Part shown: positions 40,097 through 59,012 of the stretch, piece by piece
How the letters are laid out: each line of letters starts with the position of its first letter
Position numbering within the stretch: position 1 is the first letter of the stretch
Source: Candidatus Nitrosopumilus sp.
Lineage (GTDB): Archaea > Thermoproteota > Nitrososphaeria > Nitrososphaerales > Nitrosopumilaceae
Reading direction: 5' to 3'
Length of the DNA stretch: 64,000 nucleotides
Assembly: GCF_028278985.1 (NCBI RefSeq)
Contig: NZ_JANQTA010000018.1
Coordinates: 88,816 to 152,815 of the forward strand
Translations under genes and position numbers: made by a program
The notes under the pieces: model-generated
Told to the model about the DNA's origin: nothing
Database searches by the model: none
The model's input: the letters and a program-made list of their open reading frames with translations, nothing else

Positions 40097-40654
40097 TTAT
40101 TTTTCGATTCCCTTTTTCTTTTCATAGACGTAGATACCATCTAGGAAAACTCTATGATCTTTATTTTTTACTTTTGTTTTTAGTTCAATGTTAGCTGCAG
40201 TTTGTGTAATGTCTGTCCAAACTTCTCCAGTAAGTAAAACATCTTCTCCTTTTGGAATTACTTTGGTGTTTCCTACAATTGATGTTGTTCTAGGAGCTCT
40301 TTCACCTTGGAAGTTTTCAATTAAAATTTTCTTTCCTTCAACTTTTACTGTAATTGGAAAGTGTGCAAAGACTACTTTCATTTTGATAGTGTAACCTTCA
40401 ATGAGTCCTTCACAAATATTTCTGATTAATGATCTTGCTGCATGCAAAATTGCATAATCTCTTTTTTTGTGTTCAATGGTTTTTAGAATTACTTTTCCTT
40501 CAGTAATTTCTAATGTTACTGGAATACTTCTAAAACTTTGATGTGTTTTTCCTAGTGGACCTTCGAAAGTTAACATGTGTTTTTTCTGTGTGACAGTAAC
40601 TCCTTCCGGAATCACAACTTCATCTTGGAATTTTTCAATTTGCTCAGTAGACAT
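40097..40654 (-). CDS. rpl6: Ribosomal protein uL6
   Basis: A 185-residue large-subunit protein with the two uL6 repeats. VTQKKHMLTFEGPLGKTHQSF is the first, and the IKMKVVFAHFPITVKVEGK region the second. It binds 23S rRNA near the sarcin-ricin loop. It overlaps rps8 by 11 bases. Last ribosomal gene of this operon in the window. Confidence 0.95.
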   Translation of the reverse strand: MSTEQIEKFQDEVVIPEGVTVTQKKHMLTFEGPLGKTHQSFRSIPVTLEITEGKVILKTIEHKKRDYAILHAARSLIRNICEGLIEGYTIKMKVVFAHFPITVKVEGKKILIENFQGERAPRTTSIVGNTKVIPKGEDVLLTGEVWTDITQTAANIELKTKVKNKDHRVFLDGIYVYEKKKGIEK

Positions 40655-41036
40655 ATCCTATCAAAAACCCTCCAATTCCTTTTTGTGTTGCATCATGATG
40701 AGACATTACTCCTTGATTTGTTGTTACCAATAACATGCCTCTATTGTATGCTGGTAGGTATTGTTGCTCCCAATTGTTGAACTCATCAGTTTTTACTTTG
40801 AATCTTGGTGAAATTGCACCACATTTTGTTATTTTTGCTAATAGTTTGATTTTGAATTTTCCTCCTCTTTTGTCATCAACATGCTCAAATTCTCCGATGT
40901 ATCCATCTCTTTGTAGAGTTTTGAGAACCTCAATTCCTAATTTTGATGTTGGAAGGATAGTGCATTCACTCTTTCTTCTTGTTTCATTATTGAAAATTGT
41001 GACAAATAGATTTGCTAAAACATTACTTGCTGGCAT
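40644..41036 (-). CDS. rps8: Ribosomal protein uS8
   Basis: A 130-residue protein. It starts MPASNVLANLFVTIFNNETR and contains the conserved C-terminal MLLVTTNQGVMSHHDA element that binds 16S rRNA. It follows rps14 by 4 bases and overlaps rpl6 by 11. The plus-strand ORF 40735-41064 is a shadow. Confidence 0.96.
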   Translation of the reverse strand: MPASNVLANLFVTIFNNETRRKSECTILPTSKLGIEVLKTLQRDGYIGEFEHVDDKRGGKFKIKLLAKITKCGAISPRFKVKTDEFNNWEQQYLPAYNRGMLLVTTNQGVMSHHDATQKGIGGFLIGYVY

Positions 41037-41040
41037 GGTA

Positions 41041-41220
41041 TCACCTATTTTTCCTAAATCCTAAAGAAACAGCTACTTCTCTGAAGCATCTTCTGCATAT
41101 CATCAAGTCATATTTCTGAATAACTGCAGTATAATCTCCGCATCTTTTACACCATCTTGATCCTCTGCCAAAGTCGTGTTTTTTTCTTCCAGTAAATTCG
41201 TAAGATCTATCTTTTGCCAT
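41041..41220 (-). CDS. rps14: Ribosomal protein uS14 (zinc type)
   Basis: Not in the ORF track. A 59-residue protein with C24/C27 (CKRC) and C42/C45 (CRRC) binding zinc, and the C-terminal FREVAVSLGFRKNR. It fills the rpl5-rps8 gap in the usual archaeal order. Its start overlaps the rpl5 stop by one base. Confidence 0.97.
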   Translation of the reverse strand: MAKDRSYEFTGRKKHDFGRGSRWCKRCGDYTAVIQKYDLMICRRCFREVAVSLGFRKNR

Positions 41221-41741
41221 TATGCTACAGTCACTCCAAATTCTTTTGCTAGATAATCCTTTGCTTCTTGGCTTGTAATGATGTGAGATTTTCCAACACT
41301 TGCTTTGTGTTTACTTCTTGTTCTAACACCATAACCAGGTCTTGTTAATGTAACAGCAATTCCTAATCCTAAAATTCCAATTTGAGGATCATATTTTACA
41401 CCTGGAATATCGATGTGTTCACTAATTCCAAATGAATAATTACCAAAGTTGTCAAATGATCTGCCGTTAACTGTATTTCCTTTTGCTTCTAACAATCTTT
41501 TTAGTAATGCTTTTGCATCTTCTCCTCTGATTGTTACTGCTGCCCCGATTGGTTCTCCTTTTCTTACTCCCCAATCTCTTTGAGTTTCTTTAGCTTCTCT
41601 AGCGCATGATCTTTTTCCTGAGATTTGATCAAGTGCTTTCTTTGCAATTTCAATTACATCGCCAGATTTTCCTACGCCCATGTTTAATACAACTTTTTCA
41701 AGTTTGATTTTTTTCATTGAGGATTCAGTTGTTTGAGACAT
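41220..41741 (-). CDS. rpl5: Ribosomal protein uL5
   Basis: 173 residues. KIKLEKVVLNMGVGKSGD and FGNYSFGISEHIDIPGVKYD are family hallmarks. It binds 5S rRNA. Four bases separate it from rps4e. Confidence 0.96.
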   Translation of the reverse strand: MSQTTESSMKKIKLEKVVLNMGVGKSGDVIEIAKKALDQISGKRSCAREAKETQRDWGVRKGEPIGAAVTIRGEDAKALLKRLLEAKGNTVNGRSFDNFGNYSFGISEHIDIPGVKYDPQIGILGLGIAVTLTRPGYGVRTRSKHKASVGKSHIITSQEAKDYLAKEFGVTVA

Positions 41742-41745
41742 AATA

Positions 41746-42462
41746 TCACTTTAATTGAATAATTGGTTCCTCTTTTCCGATTGGCATTATGATGTCTGCT
41801 GGAATTTCGATTTTTCTTTCTCCTAGTGCAAGAACAACTCTTTTTGGAAGAATAAATGTACCTTCTTCGACACTTTCGATTTTACCGATTTGTCCTGCAT
41901 TGATTCCACGAGTTACCAAACCTTGGCAACCTGTTTCTAATTTGATTACTTCAATAATTTTTTGACTTGGAATTTCAATCAAACATGTATCTCCAACACT
42001 AACTTTAGTATCCGAAATTGTAGAACGCCCATCATGGAAACCAATTTGCATTTTTCCTTTGTTGATTGTTGTCTTTTTTGTGACGATGACTAATTTTTTA
42101 GATTTTTCTGATTCGTTAATTTTAATTGGTTTTAGTAATTTTCCTTCGGTTGGAACTAGACGATAAATGTCTGAAACATTTTCTAGCTCAACTACATCCA
42201 TTAATCCGATTGCATGATGAAGTGATTTTCTAACAACACCGTCAATCTTTACTTTGCCTGAATAGATTGATGTTTTTGCTTCTCTCAAACTTGTTACAAT
42301 CTTTAACATGTCTCTGAGAAATACTGCTGTTGGAACTGAATAGTGTTTTTTGTGTGCACCTGGTCTTGTAGTAATTACAAATCTTTTGTCTTTTCTTGTA
42401 ATGCCCCAAAATTGAGGTGCCATTTGTCGTTTGAGTTTTTTACTTCCAGAAATGCTTACCAT
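41746..42462 (-). CDS. rps4e: Ribosomal protein eS4
   Basis: A 238-residue archaeal/eukaryotic protein. It has SGSKKLKRQMAPQFWGITRKD at the N-terminus, an S4-like RNA-binding part, and a KOW segment (RGINAGQIGKIESVEEGTF) near the end. It overlaps rpl24 by one base. Standard position in the archaeal operon. Confidence 0.96.
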   Translation of the reverse strand: MVSISGSKKLKRQMAPQFWGITRKDKRFVITTRPGAHKKHYSVPTAVFLRDMLKIVTSLREAKTSIYSGKVKIDGVVRKSLHHAIGLMDVVELENVSDIYRLVPTEGKLLKPIKINESEKSKKLVIVTKKTTINKGKMQIGFHDGRSTISDTKVSVGDTCLIEIPSQKIIEVIKLETGCQGLVTRGINAGQIGKIESVEEGTFILPKRVVLALGERKIEIPADIIMPIGKEEPIIQLK

Positions 42463-42962
42463 TAATTCTCATCTTCCTTTTTTTCAGATTTTTCTTCTGC
42501 TTTTGTTTCTTTAGGTGCTTCTTTGACTGTTTCTTTTGGTTTTTCAGCCTTTGTTTCCTTGGGCTCTTCCTTTACTGTTTCTTCTTTAGGCGTAGTTTTA
42601 GGCATGCTACTTGGGTTTTTGCCTTCTAATTTTGCTATTCTCCATTTATCATCTGTGTTTAATGATTTTACAACTAAGTTTGATGTGTGAATGTATACGT
42701 CGTATTTTTCTCCTCTAGTTTGCTCTTTCTTAATTCCTTCAATAGCAACACTACTTTTTTGAGTTGATACTTGTGAAACTTTACCGTCTACTCCTGCAAA
42801 TTCTCCTCTAACAATTGTGACGTTATCGCCTTCGACAACTCTTACACTTCGTTTTCCATATTTCTTTTGTAGATCCTTTGATAGTGCACTGCCAAGTTGT
42901 TTACTTTTTGTTTGGTATGATGCACGATAAATCATATTGTTACGCATTTTAGTTGGTTTCAT
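42462..42962 (-). CDS. rpl24: Ribosomal protein uL24 with Lys/Glu-rich tail
   Basis: 166 residues. The KOW motif ([21 protein letters not shown]) is at about 40-65 and the conserved [10 protein letters not shown] follows. The last about 50 residues are a low-complexity [10 protein letters not shown]-type extension not found in most archaeal uL24, which are about 120 residues long. The core binds 23S rRNA, and the tail may be flexible and exposed. Confidence 0.94.
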
Positions 42963-42966
42963 CTTT

Positions 42967-43389
42967 TTACACCACCATTGATGCCAAGTTAGCTACTCTT
43001 GGCCATTTTTCTGAAGCTTCTGCTGCTACTGGTCCTTTGATGTCTGTACCTTTTGTTTCTCCTTCTGGAGTGATTAATACTGCTGCATTATCCTCAAAAC
43101 AAACTCTTACTCCGTTTAATCTTCTAACTGCATATTTTTGTCTAACAATAACTGCACCATACACTTGCTTTCTTAATTCTGCTGGACCTTTCTTTACAAC
43201 AACATTACAAAAGTCACCAACGGCTGCTGCTGGCAATCTTGAAACTCTTGTTTTGTGTCTTGGAACATTAATTACTTCTAAAATTTTAGCACCAGAATTA
43301 TCTGCACATACAATTTCAGCTCCGACTGGAATTGATCTAGTGACATATGGACGGAATTCTTCTACTCCTTTACCTGCTTGTTTTGCCAT
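42967..43389 (-). CDS. rpl14: Ribosomal protein uL14
   Basis: A 140-residue protein with [20 protein letters not shown] and [11 protein letters not shown] typical of uL14. It lies at the subunit interface. It is followed by rpl24 after 4 bases and its start codon overlaps the rps17 stop by one base. The 148-residue plus-strand ORF is antisense shadow. Confidence 0.96.
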
Positions 43390-43712
43390 TATGATCTAAC
43401 CTCCACAACAACATATGATACTGATTTTGATATTGGTCTGCATTCTGCAGTCAATACTGTATCGCCTAGTTCAACATCAATACATGATGGAACATGTGCA
43501 TGAATGCTACTTTTTCCTCTTGCATATCGTTTGAATTTGTTATAGTAAACTGGTGCATCTTTTTGTAAGGTGATTGTTTGTTTTGCTTTGTTTCCTGTAA
43601 CTTTTCCTTCAAAGAGTTTTCCTCTAATGGCTAGATTTCCACAGAAAGGACAATTTTTGTCATCACATTCTCTCTTTGGATCTTTTACTTTAAGGCCGAT
43701 ATTTCTAGTCAT
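43389..43712 (-). CDS. rps17: Ribosomal protein uS17
   Basis: A 107-residue archaeal-type uS17 with an extra N-terminal CDDKNCPFCG cysteine cluster (possible zinc site), then FEGKVTGNKAKQTITLQKD and HVPSCIDVELGDTVLTAECRP. It overlaps the upstream rnp1 by 4 bases. Confidence 0.95.
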   Translation of the reverse strand: MTRNIGLKVKDPKRECDDKNCPFCGNLAIRGKLFEGKVTGNKAKQTITLQKDAPVYYNKFKRYARGKSSIHAHVPSCIDVELGDTVLTAECRPISKSVSYVVVEVRS

Positions 43713-43975
43713 GATTTTCCTCCTATTCTATCAAATGGTCTTTTTTGGATATTTGAACCATTAACAATTGCTAAAGAACTTCCGATTGAGAATTCCCAAC
43801 TATTGTTTGCTTTTGCAATTGATTTAATTCCGTTTTCTGTATTTAATGTGAACATCGATTTTGTTTCATTTATGATTTTTCCATTTAACCCTACAATTTG
43901 AGGATTAGATGATTCTACAATTTTGGTGTTTAATCCAATAAATTCATGTGATGTAATGTTTGTAGTTGTAATCAT
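43709..43975 (-). CDS. rnp1: RNase P protein component 1 (Rpp29/POP4)
   Basis: An 88-residue Sm-like barrel protein. EFIGLNTKIVESSNPQIVGLNGKI and NETKSMFTL are typical. It assists the RNase P RNA in tRNA 5' processing. It sits between rpl29 and rps17, the usual archaeal position, and overlaps both neighbours by 4 bases. Confidence 0.9.
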   Translation of the reverse strand: MITTTNITSHEFIGLNTKIVESSNPQIVGLNGKIINETKSMFTLNTENGIKSIAKANNSWEFSIGSSLAIVNGSNIQKRPFDRIGGKS

Positions 43976-44178
43976 TTTTCTTTCTTCATCTCGTTTAATC
44001 TGGTCAGCATTCTTGCGATGTCATGTCGAAGTGGTTTTAGTTTTCCACTTTCTTTTCTTAATGTACCTTTAGCTCCATCAACACGTAATTTTGCTAACTC
44101 ACTACGTGATTCTTGGATTTTACTTTTAAGATCTTTTTCGTTCAAGTTGTTAATTGTTTTCATACTGATTCTGGTCAT
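43972..44178 (-). CDS. rpl29: Ribosomal protein uL29
   Basis: 68 residues forming two helices: [20 protein letters not shown] and the C-terminal [17 protein letters not shown]. It lies near the exit tunnel, where SRP and nascent-chain factors dock. It overlaps rps3 and rnp1 by 4 bases each. Confidence 0.94.
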
Positions 44179-44930
44179 TTCAATTTGGCCTCCTCTTCCT
44201 CTAGTGTTTCAAGTTCTTTCATCTTTTCTTCTTCCATTGCAATTTGTTCTGATTCTGTTCTTGCTTTCTTTTCAGCTTCTGTTTCATCTCTCATCTTTCC
44301 AGTTTCTGCATCTTTGACTTGTTTTGCTTTCTTTGGTTTTTCTGCCTTTAACTCAAATTCTGGAATGAATTTTTCTTTTCTTGCAATTCTAATTCTGATT
44401 CCAATTAATCCCATTGGGGTTCCTACATGTGCAATGTCTTCATCAACAATAACTTCTGCATGATGACCTGCTCTTGGCAAAACTCCTGCAGTATGTTTCT
44501 CAAATGCTGAACGGTCACCTCTTAATTTTCCTGAAATTGTAATTTGAACACCCATGGCACCATTTTCCATGATTTGTTTTAGAGTCCACATGGTTGCTCT
44601 TCTAAATGCAGTTCCTCTTTCAAGGTGTGATGCCATTCTGTTACACATTACGCTTGGTGATAATTCTGGCTTGTCAATTTCAACTACTGATATTTGAGGG
44701 CTCTTTAATCCAAAGTCTGTTGACAATTTTTCAGTTAGTTCTCTGATTCCTGAACCTTTTCTTCCAATGACAATTCCTGGTCTGGTAACATGTAATGCAA
44801 CCCTTGTACCTGTTGGTGTTTTTGAAATTTCTGCGTGAGAAAATCCTGCTTCTTTAATTGCATCTCTGAGATAATCTTTGAGTAGCATCATGTTGTAGTT
44901 ATCTTTGATTACGTTTTTGACAGATGACAT
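44175..44930 (-). CDS. rps3: Ribosomal protein uS3
   Basis: A 251-residue protein. It contains the KH domain [20 protein letters not shown] and the C-terminal [14 protein letters not shown]...[15 protein letters not shown] part. The last about 50 residues form an acidic/basic helical tail ([12 protein letters not shown]-like end), longer than in most bacteria. It lies at the mRNA entry. Confidence 0.96.
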
Positions 44931-44933
44931 TTT

Positions 44934-45401
44934 CTAAATCTCCTGGGCCACCAATTCTACATGAGTTAATACATTATTCTTTGGGGTTGCTCTTCCCATT
45001 GCTCTTGGGATGAATCTTTTTACAATCACTCCTTTGTGAACAGTTGCATTTACAATTCTTAATCTGTCTAAATCCATTCCTTTGTATTCTGCATTTGATT
45101 CTAAATTATCTAAAACTTTGATAAATTCGTGAGCTGTTTTTTGTGGATAACGTCCTGACATCATTCCAGGGTCTGATTTGTGTCCTACTTGATTTTTGAA
45201 TCTTCTAAATGCAATTGCTCTGTCTTTGTGAACTACTGCTTGCAAGTAATCTCTTGCTTTTTCAATCGATAATCCTTTGATTGCAACTGCAACTTCTCTT
45301 GCATGTTTATGAGAAATGTCTTTTTCTCTTAATGAAGAACGTACATGACGAGTTGAGTCATAATTTTGGAAAGCGTAACCGAATCTACCCATACTAATCA
45401 C
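44934..45401 (-). CDS. rpl22: Ribosomal protein uL22
   Basis: 155 residues from a GTG at 45401, or 152 from the ATG at 45392 (MGRFGYAFQNYD). HVRSSLREKDISHKHAREVAVA and VHKGVIVKRFIPRAMGRATP belong to uL22, whose loop lines the exit tunnel. The GTG overlaps the rps19 stop. Confidence 0.94.
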   Translation of the reverse strand: MISMGRFGYAFQNYDSTRHVRSSLREKDISHKHAREVAVAIKGLSIEKARDYLQAVVHKDRAIAFRRFKNQVGHKSDPGMMSGRYPQKTAHEFIKVLDNLESNAEYKGMDLDRLRIVNATVHKGVIVKRFIPRAMGRATPKNNVLTHVELVAQEI

Positions 45402-45793
45402 TTCAATGGTACGTAGAGACTGGATCTTGATGCTCCTACACCTGGTGCACCGTGTGAAACTCTCTTGTTTGTTATGACATATTCTCCCAAGTAATGTCCA
45501 ATCATTTCTGTTCTGATTGTAACTGGAAGGAATTCCTTTCCTGAGAAAACATTTACTGTAACATCTACCATGTAAGGTAAGATAATCAAGTCTCTAACAT
45601 GTGTCTTGATTGGATTCTTTAATTTGCCTGCTTTTGCAGCTTTGATTTCTTCAATTAGTTTTCTCTTACCATCTGTAATTCCTCTGGTAAGAGATCTTCT
45701 TTGTCTAGCGTTGAACAATTGGAATAATTTTTCTAATGACATGTTCTCTAGTTCTTCCTTAGGAATTCCTCTGTATGAAAATTCTTTAACCAT
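45398..45793 (-). CDS. rps19: Ribosomal protein uS19
   Basis: 131 residues. THVRDLIILPYMVDVTVNVF, then IRTEMIGHYLGEYVITN and HGAPGVGASRSS are the conserved uS19 elements. Only 44 bases separate it from rpl23, so rpl2, usually found here, is absent. Confidence 0.96.
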   Translation of the reverse strand: MVKEFSYRGIPKEELENMSLEKLFQLFNARQRRSLTRGITDGKRKLIEEIKAAKAGKLKNPIKTHVRDLIILPYMVDVTVNVFSGKEFLPVTIRTEMIGHYLGEYVITNKRVSHGAPGVGASRSSLYVPLK

Positions 45794-45837
45794 GATTCAT
45801 CTCCTCTGCTTGTGTTCTTCGAGTTTTAGTGTCCATA

Positions 45838-46104
45838 TTATAGCATTCCTATCTTTGTTGCGAGGTCTCTTGCTTTTGCGGTATCTGTGAACTGAACAAA
45901 TGCTTTTTTGCCGTAAATTGTTCTGGCAGTGTTAACATTTGTTACTTTTTCGTTGTATAGTGTGTTTACAGCTTCAGCGATTTCTGGCTTACTTGCAGAT
46001 CTCTCTACAATAAAACAAATCTTACTTTCATTTTCAACCATTGCAAATGTTTTTTCTGTAATGTATGGTTTAATGATAATTTTACTTGCTTGATCTACAT
46101 TCAT
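45838..46104 (-). CDS. rpl23: Ribosomal protein uL23
   Basis: An 88-residue protein with IKPYITEKTFAMVENESKIC and FIVERSASKPEIAEAVNTLY typical of uL23. It sits at the tunnel exit and binds 23S rRNA. It overlaps rpl4 by 4 bases. Confidence 0.95.
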   Translation of the reverse strand: MNVDQASKIIIKPYITEKTFAMVENESKICFIVERSASKPEIAEAVNTLYNEKVTNVNTARTIYGKKAFVQFTDTAKARDLATKIGML

Positions 46105-46913
46105 TGTGTTTTCACCATTATCTCCAAGTGTGTTGATTTGATCTTTCCAATTTCTTCAATAGCTGATTTTGTATATACTGTTAATCTAATAGGATCTGAG
46201 CCTGGTGCTAAATCTAAAACGCTAAGATCTTTAACATTTGTTGCTTCGACTCCTGGTAATGCACCGATTGCTTTTGAAATATTTGTTGCATCTTTGGTTA
46301 CAAACAAAACACTTTTTCCTACTTTTTTACTTCTTCCTCTAAGTCTTGATTGACCAGAGCGAGCTTTTCTTGCATCAAGTCTTTTGATATCTTGAGATAG
46401 TTTCAATGAATCTAAGACTTTGGTAATCTCACTTGTTTTAGAAATTGATTCAATGTCATCTGAAACAATAATTGGGAATGATTCAATTCCTTCTACTTTA
46501 TGTCCTCTCGATTCGATTAATTCCTTTGATGCAGTAGCTGCAATTGCTGAACATAATGCTAATTTCTTTTCTTTTTTGTTTAATTTTTTGTAAATGACTT
46601 TTTCAACAATTGGTGGATGAGCTTGTCTTCCTCCTCTTGTGGATGCAACTTCGGCACCTTGACCTTGTCTTCCACCACCACCACCTTGGGCTCTTGCTAC
46701 ACGAGAAACACCTTGTCCTGTTGGAGGATCATTAGAGTCTGCAACTACATCCATTCCTGCTGTTGGTTTTCTTCCTTGTGGTTGGAATTTGTGTGAGTTT
46801 AGATTAGTGTAGGCTTTGTGAATCAATTCCTTTCTATAAGGTGTTGAAAAGACTAATGGAAGTTCAATTTCTCCATCTTTTGTTCCAGAAGAATTAGTTA
46901 CTGTAGTTTTCAT
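46101..46913 (-). CDS. rpl4: Ribosomal protein uL4
   Basis: A 270-residue archaeal uL4. VFSTPYRKELIHKAYTNLNS and the glycine-rich loop VARAQGGGGGRQGQGAEVAS, which reaches into the exit tunnel, are clear. IFVKEATN-like VLFVTKDATNISKAIGALPG follows near the end. It overlaps rpl3 by one base. Confidence 0.96.
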   Translation of the reverse strand: MKTTVTNSSGTKDGEIELPLVFSTPYRKELIHKAYTNLNSHKFQPQGRKPTAGMDVVADSNDPPTGQGVSRVARAQGGGGGRQGQGAEVASTRGGRQAHPPIVEKVIYKKLNKKEKKLALCSAIAATASKELIESRGHKVEGIESFPIIVSDDIESISKTSEITKVLDSLKLSQDIKRLDARKARSGQSRLRGRSKKVGKSVLFVTKDATNISKAIGALPGVEATNVKDLSVLDLAPGSDPIRLTVYTKSAIEEIGKIKSTHLEIMVKTQ

Positions 46914-47905
46914 TATACAACTACCTCCAAGATATTTGGTTTGTTGACTTTGGCTGGAACGTTCCTGATTTGACTTCTTAGTTTGATTAATCTTCTATAT
47001 GTACCTGGAACTGAACCTTTCAAAATTATGAAATCCCCTTTAACTAATCCAAAGTGTTTGTAACCGCCTTTAGGATTGATTTCAATTTGATTGTCGTCAG
47101 TATTTCCCATAATCATTATTCTTTTATCATATTCGACTCTTTGATGGAATCCCATTTGTCCTGCTCTTGGAACTGTATACATAACGTATTGTGGTGAGAT
47201 TGGACCTAAAGAACCAAGTTCTCTAACTGTCTTTCTTGATTTGTGTTGTTTTTTCTTTGCACCATATCTTTGAATGACTCCTTGCCATCCTTTTCCTTTT
47301 GTAATTGCTGCAACATCAACACTTGCACCAGTTTCAAAAATTTGATCAATCTTGATTTCTTTGCCAAGTAATTCTTTAACATGATTGAATTGTTTTGCAA
47401 TGTCGCCGCCACTCACTGATGCTTCAAAGATGTATGGCTTCTTTTGTTCTAAACCTGCAGCACTTGGAGATACTGCCACAATTGCAAAAATTTCTTTAAT
47501 TTTTCCTAATCTTTTTTCTGCATTTTCTAATGCGCCTTCTTTATTTTTTAATGTAATTTCTTTTGCAATGTCTTTTGGAATATCTTCTGCATACACATCA
47601 AACTCTGCGTGTAAACCGTCATGATTTTTTGAATATCCTCTAACTCCTAAAATCAAAACTGGTGGAGTTACTAAAACAGTTCCTAAACTAACTAACTGCT
47701 TTCCTGCATTTGGTGTTTTATCTCTGTCATCAATGCTAACAATCTGAACACATCCTGCTTTGAATCCACAATGAGCTAAAATTTTTGGTTCTTCTGAATC
47801 TAATTTTGGCCAAGCACGAATTCTGGCTTCCATGCTTTTAGCACGTCCTCTAGGTAAGTATGCAAGACTTCCTCTACGTGGTTGACTGTGTTTTCGAGCA
47901 CCCAT
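46913..47905 (-). CDS. rpl3: Ribosomal protein uL3
   Basis: A 330-residue archaeal/eukaryotic-type uL3. HSQPRRGSLAYLPRGRAKSM at the N-terminus, KGKGWQGVIQRYGAKKKQHK and VPRAGQMGFHQRVEYDKRI in the middle are diagnostic. The ATG at 47905 (codon 4) is preferred over 47914 because a TATA box lies 26-35 bases before it. First gene of the operon running to rpl6 and perhaps 39797. An unusual palindromic operator is just upstream. Confidence 0.95.
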   Translation of the reverse strand: MGARKHSQPRRGSLAYLPRGRAKSMEARIRAWPKLDSEEPKILAHCGFKAGCVQIVSIDDRDKTPNAGKQLVSLGTVLVTPPVLILGVRGYSKNHDGLHAEFDVYAEDIPKDIAKEITLKNKEGALENAEKRLGKIKEIFAIVAVSPSAAGLEQKKPYIFEASVSGGDIAKQFNHVKELLGKEIKIDQIFETGASVDVAAITKGKGWQGVIQRYGAKKKQHKSRKTVRELGSLGPISPQYVMYTVPRAGQMGFHQRVEYDKRIMIMGNTDDNQIEINPKGGYKHFGLVKGDFIILKGSVPGTYRRLIKLRSQIRNVPAKVNKPNILEVVV

Positions 47906-47930: not shown

Positions 47931-47940
47931 TCTATTAAAC
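47931..47940 (-). promoter_or_regulatory. TATA box of the ribosomal operon
   Basis: GTTTAATAGA on the minus strand, closely similar to the EF-2 box GTTTAATAGC. It lies 26-35 bases before the rpl3 ATG at 47905. Confidence 0.6.
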
Positions 47941-47950
47941 CAAGTGTTAC

Positions 47951-47984
47951 TTGGTTAACCTACTATTTTTTAATGGTTAACCAA
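47951..47984. promoter_or_regulatory. BirA-like bipartite palindrome upstream of rpl3
   Basis: TTGGTTAACC (47951-47960) and GGTTAACCAA (47975-47984) are exact inverse copies 14 bases apart. The pattern matches the BirA operator layout TTGTNAACC-N14/15-GGTTNACAA known in bacteria and some archaea. It lies about 10 bases upstream of the rpl3 TATA box. The same element occurs in the biotin locus at 57621. Binding by the archaeal biotin regulator is inference. Confidence 0.5.
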
Positions 47985-47997
47985 CTGTGCCTAAAAT

Positions 47998-48108
47998 TTA
48001 TGGTTGAAGCAATTCTGTTGTAATGTTGTAAATTGTGTACGCTCCAATAATAATTCCAACTACACCCATTCCGATAGCTAACAATAAAAAATTCTTTTTT
48101 TCAGCCAT
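47998..48108 (-). CDS. Tiny membrane protein (36 aa) before rpl3
   Basis: Not in the ORF track. One hydrophobic helix (NFLLLAIGMGVVGIIIGAYT) lies between MAEKK and a short tail ending LLQP. It starts 4 bases after the SPOUT gene stop and is co-transcribed with it. Its size is like that of Sec or respiratory accessory subunits, but no assignment is possible. Confidence 0.6.
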   Translation of the reverse strand: MAEKKNFLLLAIGMGVVGIIIGAYTIYNITTELLQP

Positions 48109-55491: not shown

Positions 55492-56622
55492 TCACATGAA
55501 TTTTGTGTAAGCTTTATCAAAAATATCTAGTGTATCATTGATGTGTTTTTCAGTTAGCCATGCAGTGACAGAGACTCTTAGTCTTGCTTGATTTTTTGCT
55601 ACAGTTGGATATCTAATTGGTTGAGCAAATAACCCCTTTTCAAACAAATATTTTCCAAAATCCATCGCTGTTTTTTCTTTTCCAATAATTATTGGAATTA
55701 TGTGTGATGGTGATTTGATTTCAAATCCTATACTCCTAAGTCCTTTTGATAATTTGTTTGTATTTATTTCTAGTTTTTTTCTTTGTTTTTCTCTATTTGA
55801 TGTAATGCGCTTCAGAGAATGTTCTACAAGAAATGATGGAAGTGCTGATGTATAGATAAATGATTTTGATTTATTGATACATAAATCAATAATGTTATTT
55901 TTTGCTGCAATGTATCCTCCGAATGATCCTAATCCTTTACTTAAACTGCTAATATACAAATCAACTTTCTTTGAAACATTAAAGTGACTTGGAGTACCTT
56001 TACCGTCTTTTCCTACAACAAAATCACCGTGAGCATCATCAACAATTGTAATCGCATTGTGTTTTTCTGAAAGATTTGTAATTTGTTTAAGTGATGAAAA
56101 GTCTCCATCCATACTAAAAATTCCTTCAGTTACAATAAACTTGGTTTTTGCTTTTTGTTTTAGTTTCTTTTCTAAATCTAAAATGTCGTTATGTTTGTAA
56201 ATTACAATCTTTGCATCCGATAGTTTACATGCTTCAATTATACTTGCATGGTTTAATTCATCACTGAAAACAATGTCTCCTTTTTTTGCAATAGTTGAGA
56301 TTGCTCCAAGATTTGCCATATAGCCTGTTGGATAAATCAGACTGTTTTGTTGAGACTTGTGTTTTGCAAGAATTTTTTCTAATTTTTTGTAGGATTCATC
56401 ATTTCCTGATACTAGTCTTGAACTTGATTGTAGTTGTTTGTTTGAAATTTTTGTTGATGGAATTCCTAGATAGTCATTTGAAGACAAATTTAGTAGTTTT
56501 TTACCTTTGATAGTAATCTGTGCCCCTAGAGCCTTACCATACCTCAGGGTTCGATATAGATTATTTTTTCTAATTTGCTCTAATTCTGAATCAATAAAAT
56601 CCAGTTTATGCTTTGAGGCCAA
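55492..56622 (-). CDS. bioF: 8-amino-7-oxononanoate synthase
   Basis: A 376-residue PLP enzyme that condenses pimeloyl-thioester with alanine. LNLSSNDYLGIPS, the LVSGNDESYKKLEKILAKHK region (GS/GN), VDDAHGDFVVGKDGKG and SSLSKGLGSFGG (with the PLP lysine) are all present. It overlaps bioB by 17 bases, which indicates coupling. Near the end of the transcript. Confidence 0.94.
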   Translation of the reverse strand: MASKHKLDFIDSELEQIRKNNLYRTLRYGKALGAQITIKGKKLLNLSSNDYLGIPSTKISNKQLQSSSRLVSGNDESYKKLEKILAKHKSQQNSLIYPTGYMANLGAISTIAKKGDIVFSDELNHASIIEACKLSDAKIVIYKHNDILDLEKKLKQKAKTKFIVTEGIFSMDGDFSSLKQITNLSEKHNAITIVDDAHGDFVVGKDGKGTPSHFNVSKKVDLYISSLSKGLGSFGGYIAAKNNIIDLCINKSKSFIYTSALPSFLVEHSLKRITSNREKQRKKLEINTNKLSKGLRSIGFEIKSPSHIIPIIIGKEKTAMDFGKYLFEKGLFAQPIRYPTVAKNQARLRVSVTAWLTEKHINDTLDIFDKAYTKFM

Positions 56623-57580
56623 TTTTTTCTATCATTTGACGGTCTTTTCCAGCCTCATTTCCGCCCATGGTGAGATATCCTTCAGTAATGATTCCGTTTG
56701 CGCCGCTTTGTAGAAGTTCTTCTCCTGCATCATTTAGTTTTGATTCTCTGCCTCCTGAAATTTTGATTACTGATTCTGGAAGTAAGAATCGTACCACAGA
56801 AAATATTCTAACAATTTCGGAATTTGGCAGATCGGTCTGAAGCTCTAATGGAGTTCCTGGCATTGCAACCAATATGTTAATTGTAACTTCTTCAGGATAT
56901 AATCTTCCAAGCTCTAATGCTAACTCTAATCTTTGCTCTCTTGTTTCTCCTAATCCTATAATTCCACCAGTACATAATTCTAATCCTGCATCTCTTGCTA
57001 TTCCTAACGTTTCTAATCTGTCTTCGTATGTGTGGGTTGTACAAATTTCAGAGAATTTTGATTTTGCAGTTTCTAAATTATGATTGTATCTTTTTACTTT
57101 GAGTTCTTTGAGTTTTTTTGCTTGTTCTGGAGTTAGAAATCCTAAACTACATTCAACACTAATTCCTACTTTATTGTTAATCTCTGAAATAATCTTACAA
57201 ACTTTCTCAAAATCTTTTGGTGATGGTTCTCTCCAAGCTGCTACCAAACAATATGATTCAGCACCCTCTTCTTTGGCTTTTCTTGCTTTTTCTACAACTT
57301 CTTCAGGTTGAGGTAATTGGTATGTTTCAATACCTGTGTCAAAAAATGCTGATTGCCCACAAAATGTACAGTCTTCACTACATGCATTTTTCTTAATGTT
57401 GTTTAGTTGTTCTACATCGACTTTTTTCCCGTTAAAATCTTGTGTAATTTCATTAGCACAAATTGCCAAATCCTTGAGATTCTCTTCAGGAATGTTTAGA
57501 AGTTTTTCTGCTTCTATGGCATTAATGCCAATTCCAGAAAATACCTTTTCTTGACATTCTTTGATAAACTCTAAACTCAT
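56606..57580 (-). CDS. bioB: Biotin synthase
   Basis: A 324-residue radical-SAM enzyme inserting sulphur into dethiobiotin. The SAM cluster is C67-x3-C71-x2-C74 (CSEDCTFCGQ). The further cluster ligands fall in YCLVAAW, VECSLG and the CTGGIIGLGE region. It is the first gene of bioB-bioF and has a TATA-like box and a palindromic operator upstream. Confidence 0.95.
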   Translation of the reverse strand: MSLEFIKECQEKVFSGIGINAIEAEKLLNIPEENLKDLAICANEITQDFNGKKVDVEQLNNIKKNACSEDCTFCGQSAFFDTGIETYQLPQPEEVVEKARKAKEEGAESYCLVAAWREPSPKDFEKVCKIISEINNKVGISVECSLGFLTPEQAKKLKELKVKRYNHNLETAKSKFSEICTTHTYEDRLETLGIARDAGLELCTGGIIGLGETREQRLELALELGRLYPEEVTINILVAMPGTPLELQTDLPNSEIVRIFSVVRFLLPESVIKISGGRESKLNDAGEELLQSGANGIITEGYLTMGGNEAGKDRQMIEKIGLKA

Positions 57581-57620: not shown

Positions 57621-57653
57621 AGGTTAACCTGCTAGGTATAGGGGGGTTAACAG
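57621..57653. promoter_or_regulatory. BirA-like bipartite operator upstream of bioB
   Basis: Read toward bioB the site is CTGTTAACC, 15 bases, GGTTAACCT (plus strand 57653-57621). The arms are inverse copies, and the 15-base spacer equals that of known BirA operators. It lies about 10 bases upstream of the bioB TATA box and touches the bioA stop codon. Its place in the biotin locus supports control by biotin. The regulator gene is not in the window. Confidence 0.6.
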
Positions 57654-59012
57654 TTAGATTACTTGATTTTTTGCAGATTTGATGGTTTGAATTGCCCTTT
57701 GAATTAATGAGTCTAGTTCTTTTTCTGCTATGGCTAATGGGGGCACAAGCATGACTATATTGCCTAGAGTTCTCAAATAGATGCCATTTTTCTTACCTTC
57801 TTCAAAGAAAATCTTGTTAATTGATTTTTCTGGTGAAATTGGAGTCTTTTGTTTTTGATCCTGTACTAATTCTATTCCCATAAGCATTCCTTTGTGACGA
57901 ATGTCTCCCACATAATCAATTTTTGAAATCTCGTCATAGTATTTTTCAAACACTTTGGATGTTTTTTGGATCTTTTTTATCAGATTATTCTTCTTGTACA
58001 TTTTCAAATTTTCATTTGCAACTGCAGCAGCAAGTGGATTTCCTGTAAACGTATGTCCATGGAAAAGATGTCTCCACTCATTAAACTCTCCCAAAAATGA
58101 ATCATAGATTTTTTTATTTGCTAGAGTTGTTGCCATGGTCAGATATCCTCCTGTTAACATCTTACCATATGCAACAATATCTGGAGTAGATTTTTGCTCA
58201 TCATATTGTAACATAGAACCTAATCTTCCAAAACCTGTTGCAATTTCATCTAAAACAAATAGCACGCCATATTTTTTACATAACTGAGAAATTTTCCTTT
58301 GAAATCCTTTAGGATAAATTATTACACCTCCAGCTACTTGTGCACCACTCTCCATAACAAACGCTGCAATATCTTCTTTCTTTCTAAATCGTTTTTCAAT
58401 TTTATCTAAACAGTAATTTTGATAATCTGCAATTGTCATTTTTTTTGGGAATCTGTAATTATTTGGAACTGGAAATTGTATTGTTGAAAATAATTGTTTT
58501 TTAAATTTACCAAAAAACTCTGGTACATATCCAACTGACATTGCACCAAATGTATCTCCATGATATCCATTTTCAATTGTTGCAATCTTTATTTTTTTCT
58601 TTTCACCAATGTTTTTCCAATATTGTAATGATAGTTTGATTGCAATTTCCATTGCAGAAGAACCATTGTCTGAAAAAAATACTTTGTACATTCCAGGTGA
58701 AATTTTGATAAGTGATTTTGCTAGTTGCTCAACAGGCTCATTTGTAAGATTAAACATGGATGTGTGTTGTGATATTTTGCTTTGATTTGTGATTGCTCTG
58801 ACTAACTGAGGGTTTGAATGCCCCCATACATTACACCACATTGATGCAACTGCATCAATCATTTTGTTACCTTTTGAATCTGTTAACCAGACACCTTTTG
58901 CCTTTGAAATGTTGGTAAAATCAGACCATTCTTTCATCTGGGTGTTTGGATGCCATACGGAACTAGAATTTTTCAAGTATCTTGAATATTGACAATCTTC
59001 ATAAAAATTCAA
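57654..59012 (-). CDS. bioA: DAPA aminotransferase (7,8-diaminononanoate synthase)
   Basis: A 452-residue class III PLP aminotransferase. VWHPNTQMKEWSD begins it, SMWCNVWGHSNPQL follows, and the PLP site is VLDEIATGFGRLG with lysine in VAYGKMLTGGY. It converts KAPA to DAPA using SAM in most organisms. The start codon lies 35 bases from the divergent bioD start, so both promoters overlap. Confidence 0.93.
   Translation of the reverse strand: MNFYEDCQYSRYLKNSSSVWHPNTQMKEWSDFTNISKAKGVWLTDSKGNKMIDAVASMWCNVWGHSNPQLVRAITNQSKISQHTSMFNLTNEPVEQLAKSLIKISPGMYKVFFSDNGSSAMEIAIKLSLQYWKNIGEKKKIKIATIENGYHGDTFGAMSVGYVPEFFGKFKKQLFSTIQFPVPNNYRFPKKMTIADYQNYCLDKIEKRFRKKEDIAAFVMESGAQVAGGVIIYPKGFQRKISQLCKKYGVLFVLDEIATGFGRLGSMLQYDEQKSTPDIVAYGKMLTGGYLTMATTLANKKIYDSFLGEFNEWRHLFHGHTFTGNPLAAAVANENLKMYKKNNLIKKIQKTSKVFEKYYDEISKIDYVGDIRHKGMLMGIELVQDQKQKTPISPEKSINKIFFEEGKKNGIYLRTLGNIVMLVPPLAIAEKELDSLIQRAIQTIKSAKNQVI

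Follow-up and report, generated by a model that had tools for sequence, protein, structure and literature searches.

The window analysed here, a 64,000-nucleotide stretch of a Candidatus Nitrosopumilus sp. genome, contains a ribosomal protein operon headed by rpl3 as well as the biotin synthase gene bioB (Table 1). The genes that follow rpl3 are closely spaced, and their products were named by inspecting the open reading frames (ORFs). Between rpl3, whose ATG lies at position 47905 of the minus strand, and an ORF encoding a membrane-like peptide of 36 amino acids (stop codon near 47998), there is a perfect dyad that reads TTGGTTAACC-TACTATTTTTTAAT-GGTTAACCAA in full, with arms of 10 bp each. 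Its near GTTAAC (47954-47959) ends 14 nt before the TTTAATA element when read in the minus-strand orientation of rpl3. A further inverted repeat, AACCAAGT-GTT-ACTTGGTT (47938-47956), shares bases with both the near half-site and the TATA region; it is seen in this genome without being conserved in relatives.

Table 1. Features of the rpl3 and bioB promoter regions, with positions in the window
Feature	Position	Strand	Remarks
Ribosomal run, part 1: L4, L23, S19, L22, S3, L29, Rnp1-like, S17	40097..46913	-	parts 1 and 2 together; by eye
Ribosomal run, part 2: L14, L24, S4e, L5, S14, S8, L6	40097..46913	-	parts 1 and 2 together; by eye
rpl3, ribosomal protein L3, first gene of operon	46913..47905	-	PF00297, E 5.7e-72
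TATA-like element TTTAATA of the rpl3 promoter	47933..47939	-	
Candidate BirA operator, perfect dyad TTGGTTAACC-N14-GGTTAACCAA	47951..47984	.	conserved in the Nitrosopumilus/Nitrosarchaeum clade
Promoter-proximal half-site TTGGTTAACC	47951..47960	.	
A/T-rich spacer, 14 bp	47961..47974	.	
Distal half-site GGTTAACCAA	47975..47984	.	
bioB, biotin synthase	56606..57580	-	PF04055 and PF06968
Second site, upstream of bioB, GGTTAACC-N15-GGTTAACA on the plus strand	57622..57652	.	reference copy of the operator

A second copy of the site precedes bioB and is separated from a TATA-like sequence by about 12 nt. The geometry of operator and core promoter is nearly the same at the two genes. An earlier reading, made from the sequence only, had described a perfect dyad at rpl3 and had called it the same operator as the one at bioB. 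The dyad is present as described, and none of 100 shuffled windows contains it. The identity of the two sites holds for the half-sites and, closely, for the geometry; the spacer at bioB is N15 as opposed to N14 at rpl3, a difference within the normal tolerance of BirA. Within the biotin cluster, the operator-like site is confined to the bioB-bioF side. The genes bioA (minus strand) and bioD (plus strand) diverge from annotated starts that overlap (58982-59012), and a search there found no such site.

Both copies are rare. The window contains three copies of the half-site GGTTAACC, where 0.41 are expected. In the whole genome (1.69 Mb), exact GTTAAC-N15..18-GTTAAC pairs are found at two places only, upstream of rpl3 and of bioB, while about 0.37 pairs are expected by chance from the frequency of GTTAAC in 94 kb. 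These genome-wide scans used exact or one-mismatch patterns, which weaker sites may escape. No further site scoring at least 12 of 14 was found near the acc/BCCP genes, near birA or in 30 kb of neighbouring DNA. The sole other near-match of the genome has one mismatch (G000:C25:58792-58819; L268, approximately 1501-1528) and is probably due to chance; it falls within the 3' end of an ORF of 163 aa that immediately precedes a gene for a Vps4/CdvC-like AAA ATPase. One other genome, G160, carries 13 GTTAAC pairs where its relatives have two, perhaps as part of a repeat family.

Conservation of the site upstream of rpl3

Regions upstream of rpl3 were aligned from the genus, the family and beyond, with some of the genomes being incomplete and the genus names resting on matches to named records. 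The site occurs in five genera, namely g1 (Nitrosopumilus and relatives), g25, g29, g31 (Nitrosarchaeum) and g33. At rpl3 it scores 13-14 of 14 in these genera, and the spacer is always 14 bp. Almost all copies lie between -75 and -78 relative to the ATG; one divergent genome has its copy at -73. Among 67 site-bearing rpl3 sequences, a count that includes some loci twice, 61 have a gap of 14 nt to the TATA-like element and six have a gap of 15 nt. Over 45 rpl3 sequences the arms hold 1.9 bits of information per column, compared with 0.8 for the spacer and 0.5 for the DNA 5 to 45 nt upstream. For comparison, upstream sequences from other families reach a background score of 8-10 of 14, and shuffled upstream regions give a score of 12 in 17 of 3,300 cases and never 13.

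In a tree of L3, the five site-bearing genera form one clade (support 99/97) whose sampled members all have the site, and the simplest history is therefore a single gain followed by retention. The sister lineages of this clade have rpl3 without an upstream site, which implies that the control is not essential. The exceptions within g1 are divergent genomes outside the tree: G030, G175 and G184 have one half-site only and G021 has none. Among 85,462 named species genomes, a stringent scan for the proximal half-site with the TATA region returned 27 matches. In all 27 the upstream half-site is present and the start of L3 follows; the matches are titled Nitrosopumilus, Nitrosarchaeum, Nitrosopumilaceae or Thaumarchaeota, apart from one titled Nitrososphaeraceae. 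The sequence-only reading had named two findings that would tell against it, a lack of conservation upstream of rpl3 in relatives and a random placement of the palindromes. What was found is near-complete conservation within one clade and sites that are not scattered.

Outside the clade, other arrangements occur at rpl3. In genus g36 a near-match to the operator (12-13 of 14, spacer N15) straddles the TATA box at about -47 from the ATG. It is present in all 14 genomes with an rpl3 sequence (L118-L120, L151, L152, L294-L300, L302 and L313) as TCGTTAYCY-N15-GGTTAACRA or close variants, and may mean that this control was recruited a second time, independently. Since the whole rpl3 promoter is conserved in g36, this lead is suggestive only. 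A lone half-site, GGGGTTWAC, follows the rpl3 TATA box in g22, g24, g34 and g37 (e.g. L117 and L105) and also in g30, g38 and g39 (L163, L156 and L154). It takes the form GTTAAC in the first four genera and GTTTAC in the last three, where the bioB boxes have GTTTAC too.

BirA as the candidate reader of the site

The published BirA box has the consensus TTGTAAACC-[N14/15]-GGTTTACAA (PMC545781). Scored against GTWAACC-N14-GGTTWAC, the rpl3 site of this genome matches at 14 of 14 positions, with a difference in the outer base before the half-site (TTG-GTTAACC here versus TT-GTAAACC in the published box). Sites upstream of bioB score 13-14 of 14 against GTWAACC-N14..16-GGTTWAC in most genera. In g35 and g38 they are near-literal BirA boxes, e.g. 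TTGTAAACC-N14-GGTTTACAG, while g36 and g37 are mixed and g1, g25, g33 and g34 have the GTTAAC form. Because distant genera carry a textbook BirA box at bioB, the bioB partner of the rpl3 site can be recognised as a BirA operator.

The BirA protein encoded by this genome (335 aa) combines an N-terminal HTH_11 domain (PF08279, E 8.7e-14) with BPL_LplA_LipB (PF03099, E 3.8e-20) and BPL_C (PF02237, E 7.1e-9), and is by these domain matches a complete, DNA-binding group II form. The recognition segment of BirA varies with the form of the box among genera, being SRAA in the three sampled g35/g38 genomes, which have GTAAAC/GTTTAC boxes, and SRVA alongside GTTAAC boxes. This match agrees with a role of BirA as the reader, although it probably reflects a single evolutionary event.

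The distribution of sites and of the BirA helix-turn-helix (HTH) was also compared directly. Among 40 genomes, 32 have both an intact HTH and at least one site, two have an HTH without a site (G030 and G080, with an intact HTH and no site found at rpl3 or bioB), six have neither, and none has a site without an HTH. The association has a Fisher p of 7e-6, with the caveat that the test ignores phylogeny and so overstates the independence of the genomes, which are related. The six genomes with neither, G101, G273, G065, G079, G021 and G268, belong to six genera; they lack a site at both rpl3 and bioB. The HTH of their BirA is degenerate or missing, with no HTH_11 match that reaches the Pfam cut-off, and the ligase domain is kept.

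Together with seven others, these genomes form a natural experiment, on which the link of BirA to rpl3 rests. In six Nitrosarchaeum (g31) genomes and in G081 (g29), the bioB site is lost, with best scores of 8-10 of 14 that lie at the background level, and rpl3 is the only site found genome-wide (14-bp spacer, at most one mismatch). Their BirA HTH is intact and has the recognition segment ISRVAVWKHIKKI or a near-identical one. In B. subtilis the N-terminal domain that holds the HTH is dispensable for ligation (PMC4016012), so that the ligase function alone need not explain why the HTH is retained. The simplest reading of the Nitrosarchaeum case is that the HTH has been retained on account of the rpl3 site.

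Taken as a BirA site, the dyad resembles the bacterial BirA regulons of E. coli, B. subtilis and delta-proteobacteria in its inverted repeat, its 14/15-bp spacer range and its GTWAACC/GGTTWAC half-sites, in the presence of a group II BirA, and in having a bio gene that bears the same site. It differs in its target. Bacterial targets are genes of biotin synthesis, transport or related functions, which is typical of BirA sites and is not required for binding, whereas here the second target is rpl3 with the ribosomal operon. Comparative genomics by Rodionov et al. in 2002 reportedly predicted signals of the BirA type ahead of biotin-related genes in archaea. We know of no ribosomal target among archaeal BirA sites, and a partial literature search, which covered mainly non-subscription papers, returned no report of BirA control of ribosomal genes. 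While operator and protein would be of a known kind, the ribosomal target appears to be new.

Competing readings of the dyad

With the evidence assembled, it is probable that the dyad at rpl3 serves as an operator of BirA, the bifunctional biotin protein ligase/repressor of this genome, and that it stands directly before the core promoter of the major ribosomal operon. The earlier reading had proposed a biotin-type regulator at this operon, or another regulator with the same site. The clade-wide conservation, the restriction of the sites to rpl3 and bioB, and their co-occurrence with the HTH support that proposal and favour BirA itself. An alternative is that the dyad belongs to another transcription factor with a GTTAAC half-site and that its likeness to the biotin operator is convergent. 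The rpl3 spacer is always N14 and is 87% A+T over 45 sites, compared with N14-16 and 67% A+T at bioB, and the two sites are uncoupled in Nitrosarchaeum, where rpl3 kept its site and bioB lost it. Nevertheless, rpl3 and bioB have the half-site, the orientation of the dyad, a near-identical spacing and the distance to the TATA box in common; there are no exact pairs elsewhere in the genome; and the BirA HTH is kept in lineages with the rpl3 site only and lost in lineages without sites. Convergence is therefore improbable, though an extra or different protein could account for the longer and more A/T-poor range of spacers at bioB relative to the fixed, A/T-rich one at rpl3. The dyad might also be no protein operator at all and act as a hairpin or terminator in the transcript of the 36-aa ORF that lies upstream, or as an architectural A-tract element. 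Its arms could pair in RNA, the spacer has an A/T tract, and the dyad starts about 14 nt past the stop codon of that ORF. However, the T-run falls on either strand depending on the species, the arms are conserved as sequence with no compensatory changes, the same dyad stands at bioB, and the rpl3 transcript probably starts downstream of its dyad. The varying strand of the T-run and the absence of compensatory changes led us to reject the hairpin or terminator, which is largely refuted; readings of this kind are very improbable.

If BirA is the reader, and it very probably binds the rpl3 promoter, the sign of its effect has to be considered. Archaeal activators often sit upstream of the BRE/TATA region, and since the operator lies there too, classical occlusion is not an obvious mechanism. 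The dyad operators of Ptr2, TrmB and SurR are generally known to stand immediately upstream of a core promoter with fixed spacing, as here, while their protein families and ligands differ from those of BirA and no membership is claimed. BirA could thus be an activator that binds just upstream of the BRE and recruits TBP/TFB to a weak TATA box, such that biotin sufficiency would raise ribosome synthesis. The fixed distance to the TATA-like element (14 or 15 nt) is what a protein-protein contact would produce, and site-bearing promoters read GGTTTAATAGAGGG or GGTTTATTAGACGG where most relatives without a site have TATATAATGGGG or CTTATAATGGGG, although TATA strength was judged by eye. Against activation, BirA is to our knowledge a corepressor wherever it has been studied. 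The geometry at bioB is similar, and it would make little sense for biotin to activate this gene. The g36 near-match over the TATA box is repression-like, as is the g34 bioB site, which abuts its TATA box. Activation is for these reasons the less likely option, and repression at low carboxylase demand is modestly favoured because of the corepressor role elsewhere, the bioB geometry and the g36 lead.

A possible link between carboxylase charging and ribosome synthesis

The BirA proteins of E. coli and B. subtilis bind DNA once they carry biotinoyl-AMP, and carrier protein that lacks biotin lifts the repression (PMC4016012; PMC6391492). The present genome encodes one protein with a biotin/lipoyl carrier domain (171 aa), which adjoins an ORF that by eye resembles a biotin carboxylase. 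By analogy, BirA with biotinoyl-5'-AMP would dimerise and fill both half-sites, and unbiotinylated carrier protein of the carboxylase would pull it off the DNA by engaging it as a ligase. Occupancy of the operator would then report the supply of biotin relative to the need for newly made carboxylase, the enzyme with which these autotrophs fix CO2. Repression would set in when unbiotinylated carboxylase is scarce and biotinoyl-AMP-BirA builds up. Sharing this signal, the ribosomal operon and bioB would both be turned down as production of the carboxylase slows. The site, its distribution, its conservation across the clade and its co-occurrence with the BirA HTH are computed results; binding by BirA, the sign and the physiological signal are inferred.

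A strictly conserved operator at the main ribosomal operon suggests that BirA may also adjust ribosome numbers. It is plausible, though somewhat less likely than not, that BirA in the Nitrosopumilus/Nitrosarchaeum clade has become a growth regulator that reads the charging of the single CO2-fixing carboxylase carrier and sets the synthesis of ribosomal proteins, this being the only transcriptional role left to it in Nitrosarchaeum. If so, a biotin-ligase sensor would couple translation capacity directly to carbon fixation, which depends on a carboxylase that requires biotin. Ammonia-oxidising archaea rank with the most abundant microbes on Earth, and the large site-bearing clade comprises marine and freshwater members of this group. 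Moreover, the hypothesis concerns one protein and one site and can be tested in vitro without genetics.

As a final observation, the regions upstream of bioB in Nitrosarchaeum (L124-L128 and L133), where the BirA site has been lost, have another stretch in common, TCACGCATGAAAA or TTACGCACAAA followed by CTCACTAATCTTTTTTAAT, which may be a replacement regulatory element.
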